A DNA stretch of 64,000 bases from Neisseriaceae bacterium TC5R-5 (GTDB lineage: Bacteria; Pseudomonadota; Gammaproteobacteria; Burkholderiales; Chromobacteriaceae): positions 1 through 64,000 of the forward strand of contig JACCFC020000004.1 of assembly GCA_020830965.2 (NCBI GenBank), in the 5' to 3' direction. The notes under the pieces were generated by a model. The model did not search any database. It had not been told where the DNA came from and saw only the letters and a program-made list of their open reading frames with translations. Position 1 is the first letter of the stretch. Each line of letters starts with the position of its first letter. A program made the translations under genes and the position numbers. Below, one piece after another: positions 28,281-32,937 of the stretch.

Positions 28281-30725
28281 ATGAGGTCTCAAACCAATAA
28301 CCGGCAACTTATACTCACCATTATTCCTTTCCTCATTATTGTTCTTGTGCAAGTCAGCTTGAGTACATTTAGCCTGTATACAGTTTCTACTGCACGAACC
28401 TATATTACAGGGGAAAGCTCATGGTCAAAATCTCAAAAAGACGCTATTTACTATCTGTCAAATTATGCACAGACCCAATCATTAGAGGCTTACAAAAATT
28501 ATCAGGCCGCCCTGGCCATTCAGGACGGTGATCGTCGAGCGCGTCTGGCACTGCAACAAGAACCTCCTGATATCAATGCTGCCCGCAATGGTTTGCTTCA
28601 AGGCGGCAACCATCCTGACGACATAGAAAATACCATACGAGGCTTTTTATGGTTTCACCATATTAGTTCAGTAGAAGAAACAATAAACTTATGGGGAATT
28701 GGTGATGACTACATGCAGCAATTGCAGAACATTGGCAAGCAACTACATCAAGGTATCAGCAATAACAGCATTACTGCTGATGAAATTGCTGCCCTTTCAC
28801 TGGAAATTAACCATATTAACGAACGCATTCGCCCGGCAGCACAAGGATTCTCTGATGCTCTGAATAGTTTTTCTCGTAAAATCAGTACCATTGCTTGGAT
28901 AACCAATCTTGTCGTCGCCTCTTTGCTCTTGCTACTTACCGTACGACAAATCCGTAAATTGATACAAGTATCCAGTGATTACAAGGCTGCACTGTATGCA
29001 GAAAAAGAACGAGTGGAAACCACTTTAAAATCCATAGGTGAAGCTGTCATCACCTTCAATATGGAAGGTTTACTACTCTATATGAACCCTAATGCAGAGC
29101 TACTACTCAGCCACCAAAAATGGGATGGTCAGACGCAATCCTTTGATCAGCTGTTTCAACTGATCAATACCAATAAAGCAGGCAATGATCGCATCATCAC
29201 CTTTCAAGAATTAGTTCAACAAAAAGATGGTCGCTCGACTTATCCCAGTTTACAAATGATGCGCCCCGACAAACCTCCTTTATCACTTACCCTGGTGGCG
29301 GCTCCCGTACGCAATAGCCAAGGGGAACAATATGGCATGGTACTGATACTTCACGATAACACCATAGAGCAACAATACATTAACGATCTGTCCTGGCAGG
29401 CCAGCCATGATGCGCTAACTGGCCTAGTGAATCGCCGGGAGTTTGAAACCCGTGCGGTTAAACTGCTCAACCAATTGGGTGATGATGAATCATCAGTCAC
29501 CCTAATGTTCATTGATTTGGATCAGTTCAAACTGATTAATGATACCCACGGCCATGCGGCCGGCGATGAGTTGCTATGTCAGATTAGCCGTACCGTACGT
29601 AGTCGTTTACGCCCCAGTGATACATTAGCTCGACTTGGTGGCGACGAATTTGGCGTACTGCTAGTCAACAGTACCATAGAGGGATCGGTCAGCAAGGCAA
29701 ACAATCTACGCCAAGCTATCATTGATAATCGCTTTGAATGGGAGGGCGAGTCTTTCTCAATCAGCGCCAGCATCGGCCTGACTCGTATCACTGACCCCAA
29801 TATCCCGCTGGCAGAAGTTATGCGCTCTGCTGATATCGCTTGCTATATGGCAAAGGAAAAAGGACGTAACCGCATACAGTTACACATGGCCCAGGATTCT
29901 GAAATCTCTGCTCGCTTTCATGAAATGGACTGGGTGCAACGCTTACGTCGTGCGATACAAGAAGGCGAGTTTCGCCTGTTCGCACAAGAAATTGTTCCAC
30001 TCAATGAGAACCATGAAGGTGGCCGCTACGTTGAAATATTGCTACGCCTGCAGACGGAAAATAGCAACTTGGTTCTGCCAAGCGACTTTATCCCAGCCGC
30101 AGAACGTTACGGCCTGATGCAGGAAATCGATCGTTTTGTTGTTTCCAAAACCTTTACTGAACTCACACTCATGCGCGAGCAGGGCGACAACAGCATTACA
30201 CATTGTGCGATTAATCTTTCCGGTAGCACCCTAAACGATGATGGTTTTCTGGAGTTTATCCATGAGCAATTCAGTCGGACAAAAATTCCTGCTGAAACCA
30301 TCTGCTTTGAAATCACAGAAACCAATGCCATTGCTAATTTAGAAGCAGCACAACATCTGATTAAAGCATTACGCCAACTAGGCTGTCGGTTCTCGCTAGA
30401 TGACTTTGGCGCCGGCATGTCGTCTTTTGCTTACCTCAAGCACCTACCCGTCGACTACTTAAAAATAGATGGCAGTTTTGTCAGGAATATGGAGCATGAC
30501 TCCATCGACTACGCGATGGTAGAAATGATTCATCAGATTGGCCATCTAACCGGTAAACGCACGATCGCCGAATTTGTGAGCAGCGCAAATACAGTTAAGG
30601 AATTACAAGAAATTGGAGTGGACTACGCTCAAGGTTTTTACTTGGCGCAACCTGCTCCTTTTAATAGCCAATTGAAGACAAAGCAGGATGCTCAAGCATC
30701 TTCGCAGAAACTGATTGGCTATTGA
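28281..30725 (+). CDS. Membrane PAS-GGDEF-EAL cyclic-di-GMP protein
   Basis: This 814-residue inner-membrane signalling protein has an N-terminal helix (residues 10-32), a periplasmic helical sensor region to about 205, and a second helix (207-229). A PAS domain follows (about 248-370), then GGDEF (RLGGDEFG near 450) preceded by an RPSD inhibitory site five residues before it, then an EAL domain. The EAL signature is EILLR (near 582) instead of EALLR; DDFGAG (near 707), the Lys in YLKIDG and the Glu in FEITET are retained. Both diguanylate cyclase and phosphodiesterase activity are possible. An UndA-like gene follows 114 bp later. Confidence 0.92.
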   Translation: MRSQTNNRQLILTIIPFLIIVLVQVSLSTFSLYTVSTARTYITGESSWSKSQKDAIYYLSNYAQTQSLEAYKNYQAALAIQDGDRRARLALQQEPPDINAARNGLLQGGNHPDDIENTIRGFLWFHHISSVEETINLWGIGDDYMQQLQNIGKQLHQGISNNSITADEIAALSLEINHINERIRPAAQGFSDALNSFSRKISTIAWITNLVVASLLLLLTVRQIRKLIQVSSDYKAALYAEKERVETTLKSIGEAVITFNMEGLLLYMNPNAELLLSHQKWDGQTQSFDQLFQLINTNKAGNDRIITFQELVQQKDGRSTYPSLQMMRPDKPPLSLTLVAAPVRNSQGEQYGMVLILHDNTIEQQYINDLSWQASHDALTGLVNRREFETRAVKLLNQLGDDESSVTLMFIDLDQFKLINDTHGHAAGDELLCQISRTVRSRLRPSDTLARLGGDEFGVLLVNSTIEGSVSKANNLRQAIIDNRFEWEGESFSISASIGLTRITDPNIPLAEVMRSADIACYMAKEKGRNRIQLHMAQDSEISARFHEMDWVQRLRRAIQEGEFRLFAQEIVPLNENHEGGRYVEILLRLQTENSNLVLPSDFIPAAERYGLMQEIDRFVVSKTFTELTLMREQGDNSITHCAINLSGSTLNDDGFLEFIHEQFSRTKIPAETICFEITETNAIANLEAAQHLIKALRQLGCRFSLDDFGAGMSSFAYLKHLPVDYLKIDGSFVRNMEHDSIDYAMVEMIHQIGHLTGKRTIAEFVSSANTVKELQEIGVDYAQGFYLAQPAPFNSQLKTKQDAQASSQKLIGY

Positions 30726-30784
30726 TAACGATGCAACAAACTCAGACATCAATCCAAAGATATAACAAACAGATGATGAAGATT

Positions 30785-30814
30785 TTGTCAGTGTCGGCAA
30801 TGCCAAAATATTAA
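30785..30814 (+). promoter_or_regulatory. undA: Possible promoter of the undA-like gene
   Basis: TTGTCA at 30785-30790 is followed after 18 bp by TATTAA at 30809-30814 (or ATATTA after 17 bp). The downstream gene has a strong AAGGAG site eight bases before its ATG. This would allow expression independent of the GGDEF/EAL gene. Confidence 0.5.
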
Positions 30815-30839
30815 TTTCAGTAAAATAAGGAGATGAACC

Positions 30840-31637
30840 ATGAACAAAGAAAATACTTTCGTCAGGTCCGGCCCATTAATGGACATCAGCAGCTATCCAA
30901 AATGGACGCAGGAAGTTGTAGAACATTGCAATGAGTACAAACGCCAAGTAGTGGAACACAAGTTATTTGCACAAATGCGTGATGGTACCTTGCACAGAGA
31001 CATTCACAAGGCGTTTCTGATTGGTGGCTGGCCAGTGATAGAGCAGTTCCCTCAATATATGGCCCGCAATCTGCTAAAAGTTCGCTACGGCGAAAACCGT
31101 GGTCATGATATGGCCAGACGCTACCTGATTCGGAATATTCGAGTAGAGCAAAATCACGCCGACCACTGGGTCAATTGGTCGCTTGCCTCCGATATCAACC
31201 TAAATGAATTGCTCAATAACCACTCCGCACTGGAAACGCTTAATCTCAGCCATTGGTGCGGCCAGGTCTGCGAGAAAAACTCCCTAGAGGTGGCTATGGC
31301 AGCCACTAACTACGCCATTGAAGGTGCTACTGGGGAGTGGTGTGCGCTAGTTTGCTCACGAGATATTTACGAACAACAGTTTCCCAAGGAAAAACGTGCT
31401 AAAGCGATGAAGTGGCTGGCCCTGCATGCTCACTACGACGATGAGCACCCATGGGAAGCTCTCGATATTATTGTCACTCTAGTTGGCACCAACCCATCCA
31501 ATAAGCAAACAGCGGAACTCAGTCATGCTATCTGCCAAAGTCACCGCTATATGAAATTATTGCTTGATCATTATATGAGCCGGGGCCCTCAGGCGACAGG
31601 GCAATCCACGCGCAGTACCGAGTCGGCACTGGCCTAA
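30840..31637 (+). CDS. undA: UndA-like non-heme iron fatty-acid decarboxylase (1-alkene forming)
   Basis: This 265-residue protein has the haem-oxygenase-like (TenA/HDO) fold. UndA of Pseudomonas oxidatively decarboxylates medium-chain fatty acids to terminal alkenes, chiefly 1-undecene. As I recall, its metal ligands are E101, H104, E159 and H194; here E103, H106 (VEQNH), E161 (AIEGATGEW) and H196 (HAHYDDEH) keep exactly the same spacing. D200 and H203 lie close to the second metal site. The RSGPLM and YPKWTQ opening and the IGGWPV block also fit my memory of UndA, and length matches (261). A perfect terminator follows, so it ends its unit. Without a search, a related HDO oxygenase remains the alternative. 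Confidence 0.82.
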   Translation: MNKENTFVRSGPLMDISSYPKWTQEVVEHCNEYKRQVVEHKLFAQMRDGTLHRDIHKAFLIGGWPVIEQFPQYMARNLLKVRYGENRGHDMARRYLIRNIRVEQNHADHWVNWSLASDINLNELLNNHSALETLNLSHWCGQVCEKNSLEVAMAATNYAIEGATGEWCALVCSRDIYEQQFPKEKRAKAMKWLALHAHYDDEHPWEALDIIVTLVGTNPSNKQTAELSHAICQSHRYMKLLLDHYMSRGPQATGQSTRSTESALA

Positions 31638-31650
31638 GCGATAGACTCTG

Positions 31651-31674
31651 GACCCACTTCCTGTGGGTCTTTTA
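31651..31674 (+). terminator. Rho-independent terminator after undA
   Basis: A perfect 7-bp stem, GACCCAC (31651-31657) with GTGGGTC (31663-31669), has a 5-nt loop and is followed by TTTTAT. It lies 14 bp past the undA stop. Confidence 0.9.
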
Positions 31675-31816: not shown

Positions 31817-32416
31817 ATGCCAATACCAGACGACACACTCCCCAATACCCCAGTAGCTGCGGTGAATGTACCCAGCACCCGCCAACTTTTTTTCGGTTTC
31901 CTCCATCTTGGCATGACGGCCTTCGGTGGCGCTTTGCCATTAGCGCACCGGATGATAGTAGAACGCCAACGTTGGCTAAACGAAACTCAATTTGTCGAAT
32001 TGTTGGGCTTATGTCAGTTCCTGCCAGGCGGCAATGTGATTAATTTAGCGGTAGCGCTGGGAATGCGCTTCCGTGGTGTAGCTGGCGCACTGGCGGCACT
32101 CCTAGGCTTGATTGCCGTACCCTCTGTAGTGGTCATATTGTTGGGCACCTTGTATCAGCACTATCAAGCAGATCCACACATCAAGCATTTGTTTGCCGGA
32201 CTTGCAGCGGCAGCCGCCGGTTTGTTAATCCAAATGGCTATAAAAATTGTGCTGCCCTTACGCAAACATCTGGTACTGGCTGGATTGGCTGGCCTTTGCT
32301 TTATCGCCATTGCTTGGTTACGCCTCCCACTGCTGTGGACCATGCTGGTGCTGACACCAATTAGCATACTGATCACAGCAAAACTGCCTATCACTCGTCC
32401 CGGGAATAAACCATGA
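31817..32416 (+). CDS. chrA: Chromate transporter ChrA, N-terminal-type half
   Basis: This 199-residue inner-membrane protein of the short-chain CHR family has FLHLGMTAFGGALPLAHRM near residue 29 and the conserved CQFLPGGNVINLAVALG near residue 66, with about six helices. Short CHR proteins are encoded as adjacent pairs that together correspond to one long ChrA; the second half overlaps here as ATGA. The pair expels chromate or transports sulfate-like anions. An upstream TTG/ATG in another frame near 31801 is a shadow. Confidence 0.88.
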   Translation: MPIPDDTLPNTPVAAVNVPSTRQLFFGFLHLGMTAFGGALPLAHRMIVERQRWLNETQFVELLGLCQFLPGGNVINLAVALGMRFRGVAGALAALLGLIAVPSVVVILLGTLYQHYQADPHIKHLFAGLAAAAAGLLIQMAIKIVLPLRKHLVLAGLAGLCFIAIAWLRLPLLWTMLVLTPISILITAKLPITRPGNKP

Positions 32417-32937
32417 TCCAGACCCTGCTTGCCCTGGCCTTGATTTTTTCTGAGCTCTCTCTCTTGGCCTTCGGTGGCGGCAATACCATTTTGCCGGAGA
32501 TGCAGCGCCAGGTAGTGGAAGTACATCGCTGGATGAGTGCGGAAGACTTCAACGCACTGTTCGCGCTGGGGCAGGCGGCCCCCGGCCCTAATCTGATGAT
32601 CGTCACACTCGTTGGCTGGCATGTAGCGGGCTTCTACGGCATGGTGGTTACCACACTCGCCAAGTTCGGCCCCTCTTCCTTGCTAACCATCGCCATGCTA
32701 CACGTGTGGGAACGCTTCAAGGACAAACCCTGGCGACGACATGTACAGGCCGGTTTGCTACCGATCACAGCCGGGCTGGTAGCGGCCAGCGCCGCACTGA
32801 TTGCACAGGCATCAATCAGCAATGGTGTGCTGGCTATCATTACCGCGCTCACCGTTGCGCTCTCACTGAAGACCAAACTGCATCCTTTGTACTTACTAGC
32901 TGGCGGCGCACTAGCAGGCTTGCTGCTGTTGAGCTAA
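32413..32937 (+). CDS. chrA: Chromate transporter ChrA, C-terminal-type half
   Basis: This 174-residue partner of the preceding gene has the homologous signature LLAFGGGNTILPEM near residue 17 and ALGQAAPGPNLMIVTLVGW near residue 51, with about five helices. The 4-nt overlap with its partner indicates coupled translation and a heteromeric transporter. Chromate efflux is the family role; the physiological substrate here is unproven. No chrB-like regulator adjoins. Confidence 0.88.
   Translation: MIQTLLALALIFSELSLLAFGGGNTILPEMQRQVVEVHRWMSAEDFNALFALGQAAPGPNLMIVTLVGWHVAGFYGMVVTTLAKFGPSSLLTIAMLHVWERFKDKPWRRHVQAGLLPITAGLVAASAALIAQASISNGVLAIITALTVALSLKTKLHPLYLLAGGALAGLLLLS

Follow-up and report, generated by a model that had tools for sequence, protein, structure and literature searches.

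The rbdA-undA locus

The window, by which we mean the whole stretch of 64,000 nucleotides analysed, carries on its forward strand at 30840..31637 an open reading frame of 265 aa with an ATG start, seven bases ahead of which lies the sequence AAGGAG (30827-30832). Judged from its sequence the frame is UndA, a heme-oxygenase-like diiron (HDO) fatty-acid decarboxylase with all six metal ligands, to which the CADD-type enzymes come as a distant second; it is the sole match in the genome. In a phmmer search against the PDB, the UndA chain 4wwj aligns with residues 5-251 without a gap (E 1.8e-93), the UndA-type chains 6p5q (2.9e-93) and 3oql (1.1e-92) are matched as well, and the matches with E <= 1 are UndA-type chains only, each ungapped over 241-247 residues. 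Since the alignment to the UndA chain is ungapped, the ligand spacing in the window protein is of the UndA type. In fact the residues E103, H106, E161, W192, H196, D200 and H203 are all carried, together with the RSGPLM and IGGWPV blocks, and the first-pass annotation, which had proposed a UndA-like protein with exactly these coordinates, ligands, spacing and blocks, is thereby confirmed. We take the six residues other than W192 to be the metal ligands, and presumably the numbering in Pseudomonas UndA (E101, H104, E159 and H194) is offset by two residues, by which W192 would stand at the W190 position. For HDO enzymes a ligand rule of three histidines and three carboxylates has been described, and for UndA a radical step at W190 (PMC13108848).

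The closeness of the protein to UndA as against CADD or PqqC, which the same annotation had marked for checking, was borne out in sequence terms. A UndA profile of 21 rows finds UndA in the PDB at 1e-119, and next the CADD structure 1rcw and the 4-aminobenzoate synthase 8va9 at about 4e-6. Moreover, the protein passes PF14518 (36.4 bits against a cut-off of 28.9) and reaches neither the TenA/PqqC model PF03070 (19.2 bits against 22) nor the CADD model TIGR04305 (25.7 bits against 200); an identity as CADD, PqqC or TenA was rejected for these missed cut-offs and the far weaker profile match. A phage gene was rejected too, as the two phage records that match do so at only 31%. In the ligand survey, to which 116 loci were given and in which 112 had a match, all seven letters (the six ligands and the tryptophan) are kept in 108, and three of the others are fragments. 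The UndA relative at L162:5431-6216, from the genome G034, carries A at position 103 and P at position 203 and misses one residue near the third helix motif, a pattern that resembles decay or a new function.

Upstream on the same strand, at 28281..30725, lies a gene of 814 aa with the layout TM-periplasmic-TM-PAS-GGDEF-EAL, shared with RbdA (PA0861), the biofilm-dispersal phosphodiesterase of P. aeruginosa, of which the neighbour is identified as an orthologue. PA0861/RbdA is also its closest solved relative (5xgb; E 8.8e-175, residues 235-797), and the P. protegens protein is 49% identical over residues 9-796. Pfam reports EAL at 2.5e-65, GGDEF at 3.8e-41 and PAS_9 at 5.3e-4; the PAS_9 score of 20.7 bits is under the Pfam cut-off of 27, nevertheless the 5xgb match spans the PAS region. 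The GGDEF domain (aa 374-531; 29400..29873) has an intact GGDEF motif with RxxD five residues upstream, while in the EAL phosphodiesterase domain (aa 553-791; 29937..30653) EIL, INLS, TET, DDFG, KIDG and AEFV are present, which we take to include the catalytic motifs. The periplasmic sensor region together with both TM helices occupies aa 1-235 (28281..28985), with hydrophobic segments at 10-28 and 201-219 by hydropathy, and no Pfam model reaches its cut-off within these 235 residues. The PAS-GGDEF-EAL neighbour, mentioned in passing by the first-pass annotation, is therefore real, with its PAS match below the cut-off, and is the usual partner of UndA and not an incidental one.

The gap between the two genes (30726..30839, 114 nt) holds at 30785-30812 its sole promoter-like match on the forward strand (9/12). 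As this site is at chance level, with 6 promoter-like sites found against 7.8 in shuffles, a separate undA promoter was rejected, and of the promoter and terminator of its own formerly ascribed to undA only the second part stands. It is a terminator-like hairpin at 31650..31670 on the forward strand with an 8-bp stem and the tail TTTATCTGAC; the scan is a lenient one (13 sites of this kind in 4.1 kb against 3.4 in shuffles), and this hairpin has the most G-C pairs among the 13. The rbdA-undA unit would probably end here. The G+C content is 45% in rbdA, 49% in undA and 51% in the window. Further downstream, at 31817-32937, are two consecutive short membrane-protein frames, which presumably resemble a split chromate-transporter pair.

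Distribution and descent of UndA

The genus of the window is Chromobacterium in the GTDB sense. Among the best 80 of at least 581 matches, the UndA proteins of C. haemolyticum, C. alkanivorans and C. aquaticum are 75-76% identical to the window copy, those of Aquitalea 64-67%, of Neisseriaceae JH1-16 63%, of Crenobacter 58%, of Methylibium 56-60% and of Pseudomonas 53-58%. At the genome level, UndA is present in 6 of the 19 genomes of the window genus and in 25 of the 61 genomes of the family, while HDO proteins are found in 26 of 399 genomes in the order sample, distant ones of about 30% identity included, and in 4 of 369 (G000, G655, G704 and G756) in the class-wide sample. The first-pass annotation regarded a betaproteobacterial UndA as notable; the copy is real, but with such an occurrence in the family it is not isolated.

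A tree was made from 54 of the 113 rows, with no CADD, PqqC or TenA row among them, and here the window copy groups with other UndA proteins, as the annotation would have it. Its sister group is formed by the Chromobacterium copies (99/90), and both belong to a group of Chromobacterium and Aquitalea (100/100); the Pseudomonas copies with one P. aeruginosa plasmid copy form a clade of their own (99/98) in the same part of the tree, and the distant HDOs lie on a long separate branch. This position fits inheritance within the family, that is, an ordinary descent of the window undA. The loci of C. haemolyticum and C. alkanivorans have the same three genes upstream of rbdA-undA as the window, presumably pxpA-C; in C. 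aquaticum the contig breaks off within the first of the three. A recent foreign acquisition was rejected on account of the tree position and of these common upstream genes.

It might be supposed that the window protein belongs to the UndA clade and yet acts on another substrate, either of other chain length or not a fatty acid at all. UndA turns dodecanoic acid into 1-undecene by decarboxylation, and the substrates of the HDO family are many (PMC13108848); such a shift would be compatible with an identity of 53-58% to Pseudomonas UndA among the best 80 of at least 581 matches, and of 56% to the P. protegens protein, the comparison proposed earlier. However, the alignment to the UndA structures is ungapped, and long invariant blocks run through the 21 non-Pseudomonas UndA rows of alignment A1, which are 21 of the rows found by the genome searches. 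We consider this supposition quite improbable.

Plasmids gave 12 UndA or HDO matches, namely five Caballeronia records (50-51% in four, one fragment), one of Burkholderia ambifaria (45%), one of P. aeruginosa (55%), a Methylibium fragment and four of Acinetobacter (about 31%), and the gene context was opened for three of the 12. For instance, the conjugative plasmid NZ_CP086300.1 of B. ambifaria (L140:1-11135) has an rbdA-HDO pair, with the HDO of 45%, which is flanked by a Crp/Fnr regulator before and a LysR-type gene after it, and which is situated between transposition genes (Mu-type transposase, TniB, TniQ) and two recombinases. Apparently this pair is mobile as one unit.

Conservation and variation of the pair

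In the named loci, again the best 80 of at least 581 matches, rbdA lies directly upstream of undA on the same strand in 75, comprising 61 of 61 in Pseudomonas and 14 of 19 in other groups, and the five unpaired loci are four of Methylibium and L069. Of the 75 paired loci, 73 have a gap between -4 and 96 nt, against 114 nt in the window; as outlying cases L098 has 293 nt, because its rbdA frame ends early, and L107 about 63 nt by the ORF listing. According to Rui 2014 (cited in PMC10614000), the undA of Pseudomonas genomes is always found in association with rbdA, and our sample of 149 Pseudomonas genomes agrees: UndA is found in 121 and the sensor domain in 129, both occur in all 121 UndA genomes, and 120 of these have the two genes side by side in the same order, while in the last they are split over two contigs. 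In the family, UndA is present in 25 genomes, the sensor in 28 and both in 24, the single genome with UndA but no sensor match being G034, whose copy has the changed ligands. In the order sample (n=399) the sensor occurs in 26 of 26 HDO genomes versus 23 of the 373 others, 49 sensor genomes altogether. The Fisher P values for co-occurrence in these three samples, 1e-18, 8e-12 and 1e-27, are only a guide because related genomes are treated as independent. Class-wide, the sensor is found in 12 of 355 genomes; G000 and G704 are in both lists, and neither G655 nor G756 turns up with a sensor match in this sample, which is smaller than the HDO sample (369) and may omit either of them. In G655 a distant HDO (33%) stands behind a GGDEF-EAL gene without the RbdA-type sensor, and in G756 a piece of UndA without an upstream sensor is cut off on its other side by the contig end.

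When ten window genes were compared with 14 paired loci outside the genus (seven Aquitalea, JH1-16, Crenobacter, Pseudogulbenkiania, P. protegens and three plasmids; flanks up to 8 kb), rbdA and undA alone recur in 13, and the fourteenth, L140, adds a Crp match of 33%. Moreover, the groups in a tree of RbdA echo those of the UndA tree: the window with Chromobacterium and then Aquitalea, Crenobacter with JH1-16, and Pseudomonas, and the plasmid copies of Caballeronia and B. ambifaria also group in both trees. The RbdA tree was made by a quick method from 57 chosen rows, one of them short, and its congruence with the UndA tree was judged by eye. At the level of sequence, the identity of both proteins, their intact catalytic residues and the conserved pairing may be regarded as established, and the adjacency in Pseudomonas as well as in several further bacteria suggests a joint function of enzyme and sensor.

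The pairing could also reflect shared regulation only, UndA and RbdA being made under the same conditions, such as biofilm exit or O2, with neither substrate nor product in contact with RbdA. The tight same-strand spacing suggests co-transcription, and sensor genomes with no HDO match number 23 of 49 in the order sample, 8 of 129 among the sampled Pseudomonas genomes and 4 of 28 for the family; therefore the sensor can work without UndA. In 24 sensor-only loci, some cut by contig ends, a profile search of the frames found no HDO, and a fixed replacement enzyme beside these sensors was rejected as the neighbours, listed by crude ORF picking for 20 of the 24, vary. Against shared regulation speaks the locus L069:7953-11434, where UndA is followed after about 38 nt by a hybrid histidine kinase of 865 aa, in reversed gene order, which has the same sensor domain and the layout sensor-PAS-PAS-HisKA-HATPase-receiver, with no c-di-GMP domains. 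Co-transcription alone gives no explanation for a partner that shares just the sensor domain, nor does it account for the distant HDOs, beside which an RbdA-like gene is retained even in the 3 loci with a divergent arrangement. We hold shared regulation for a plausible account with clearly less than an even chance of being the whole story.

The L069 case comes from one metagenome-assembled genome, and its UndA is sister to a Methylibium copy, whereas the eight best matches of its sensor domain include none from Methylibium. The four Methylibium loci themselves have UndA without an adjacent sensor gene, and each of these genomes has a sensor gene elsewhere.

As for the distant HDOs (28-33%), 17 loci have an RbdA-like gene 11-559 nt upstream in the same orientation; one of them, L154, is cut before the sensor part. 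The genomes G200 (L149, L150) and G205 (L143, L144) have two distant HDOs each, every one with its own RbdA-like neighbour, and L144 with L149 makes a separate branch in both trees. The partner architectures vary, with one PAS, two PAS (L143, L065), no PAS match (L144) and one hybrid histidine kinase; as far as domain matches tell, the periplasmic sensor domain is the part common to the partners of UndA-like enzymes. This domain (window 28281-28985; L163-L166, L175-L194) is an input module for which Pfam has no model, and the outputs seen behind the RbdA-type sensor domain are GGDEF-EAL, GGDEF alone (L176) and histidine kinase (L182, L069). Among the 57 rows of the RbdA tree, the proteins beside distant HDOs are one group (support 85), while the UndA-linked rows fall into more than one group (at least 6-7 changes), with HDO-less rows in between. 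The sensor positions D54, A90 and A101 differ between the UndA-linked and the distant-HDO-linked groups, the short row excluded, which shared descent may also explain.

A possible enzyme and sensor circuit

Our main reading, to which we give a probability of roughly 0.8, is that the window gene is UndA and the second gene of an rbdA-undA unit, in which a fatty-acid decarboxylase is coupled to a membrane sensor. By analogy with relatives, from which both the UndA reaction and the dispersal role of RbdA are taken, UndA would be an O2-using diiron enzyme that takes the carboxyl group off medium-chain free fatty acids. The periplasmic domain of RbdA would sense a molecule, PAS, GGDEF and EAL would relay the signal, and the output would be a lowered cyclic-di-GMP level and the release of cells from the biofilm. 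As to the molecule, the product of UndA or its fatty-acid substrate may be the ligand of the periplasmic domain, an enzyme with its own sensor, on the plan of RpfF, the synthase of the fatty-acid signal BDSF, and RpfR, its PAS-GGDEF-EAL receptor. We give this proposal not quite an even chance.

For the reading as a whole speak the conserved pair and the sensor domain common to the partners; against it count the sensors found with no HDO match, the unpaired Methylibium loci, G655 and G756, and the place of the UndA-linked rows in the RbdA tree. Several reports bear on it as well. In its favour, the periplasmic domain of RbdA has been modelled with a large cavity whose lining consists of small aliphatic residues, its ligand unknown, and undA goes unmentioned in the text on this model (PMC11372557). 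Against it, Mn2+ stimulates RbdA and was proposed as its signal (PMC10294637). In P. fluorescens PF07, total c-di-GMP was not significantly raised by deletion of rbdA (PMC13101488), and therefore a bulk c-di-GMP read-out may miss an effect of RbdA. Also in favour of the reading, deletion of undA in P. fluorescens MFE01 impairs biofilm maturation and airborne 1-undecene restores it, and the authors suppose dedicated 1-undecene receptors, the receptor being unknown, with work on RbdA planned (PMC10614000). Since RbdA drives dispersal and 1-undecene in MFE01 is tied to biofilm build-up, the sign of the effect does not follow simply.

It is also conceivable that the circuit serves to clear a signal, with RbdA sensing a free fatty acid that UndA destroys and 1-undecene being mainly a by-product. 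A C12 fatty acid is what UndA consumes (PMC13108848), the PAS domain of RpfR binds C12:0 as an inactive ligand (PMC6361424), and dispersal by cis-2-decenoic acid requires RbdA (PMC10746223). However, the reported sensor of cis-2-decenoic acid is DspS (PMC10746223), and pure airborne 1-undecene restores the biofilm maturation of the undA mutant (PMC10614000); therefore the product itself acts, and clearing of a signal seems unlikely to us.

Returning to the enzyme with its own sensor, we may extend it into a more general scenario: the UndA-family oxidases and the RbdA-type periplasmic domain would form an old enzyme-sensor module for fatty-acid-derived hydrocarbons, RbdA (in L069 the histidine kinase) would perceive 1-undecene from the air or its precursor, and the HDOs of about 30% would make another ligand for their own branch of sensors. 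This is put forward tentatively, and we would sooner expect it to fail in some part than to hold. It matches two orphans, 1-undecene without a known receptor and the modelled hydrophobic pocket of RbdA without a known ligand; that the pair is conserved outside Pseudomonas as well, and that L069 keeps the sensor without the c-di-GMP output, points these two at each other. If it were true, bacterial airborne signalling would gain a new type of circuit, with a c-di-GMP enzyme as the sensor of a volatile hydrocarbon.

In the literature searched, which lacks most subscription papers, so that absence counts for little, no statement was found on the betaproteobacterial spread of the pair, on the distant-HDO pairs or on the histidine-kinase case. 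A single paper there names RbdA together with UndA, and it is also the one that names RbdA together with 1-undecene. The same literature gave neither 1-undecene together with 'diguanylate cyclase' nor PA0861 together with PA0862, and among the papers listed for 1-undecene and Chromobacterium no title or abstract start is about such production; 1-undecene and Methylibium both occur in PMC13188866.

Compared with known systems, the window UndA shares with Pseudomonas UndA (4wwj, 4wwz, 4wx0, 6p5q; relative 3oql) the ungapped residues 5-251, the six ligands, the relay tryptophan and the rbdA-undA gene order, but it is 56% identical to the P. protegens protein, lies in a betaproteobacterial lineage outside the Pseudomonas clade and has a gap of 114 nt to rbdA. 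CADD and 4-aminobenzoate synthase (1rcw, 8va9) are likewise of the heme-oxygenase-like diiron family, whereas their match to the UndA profile is weak and partial (E about 4e-6). The undA-rbdA pairing already in print (Rui et al. 2014, via PMC10614000) concerns Pseudomonas genomes; here the pair is found in the Chromobacteriaceae lineage, and in Crenobacter, Caballeronia and Burkholderia, partly on plasmids, together with distant UndA-like enzymes of about 30% that have RbdA-like partners and, in one genome, UndA followed by a sensor-domain histidine kinase. With RpfF/RpfR there is in common a fatty-acid enzyme gene beside the gene of a PAS-GGDEF-EAL receptor. The enzyme family and chemistry are nevertheless unlike those of UndA, rpfF and rpfR are convergent, and RpfR senses by its PAS domain (PMC6361424), whereas what the partners of UndA-like enzymes share is the periplasmic domain.
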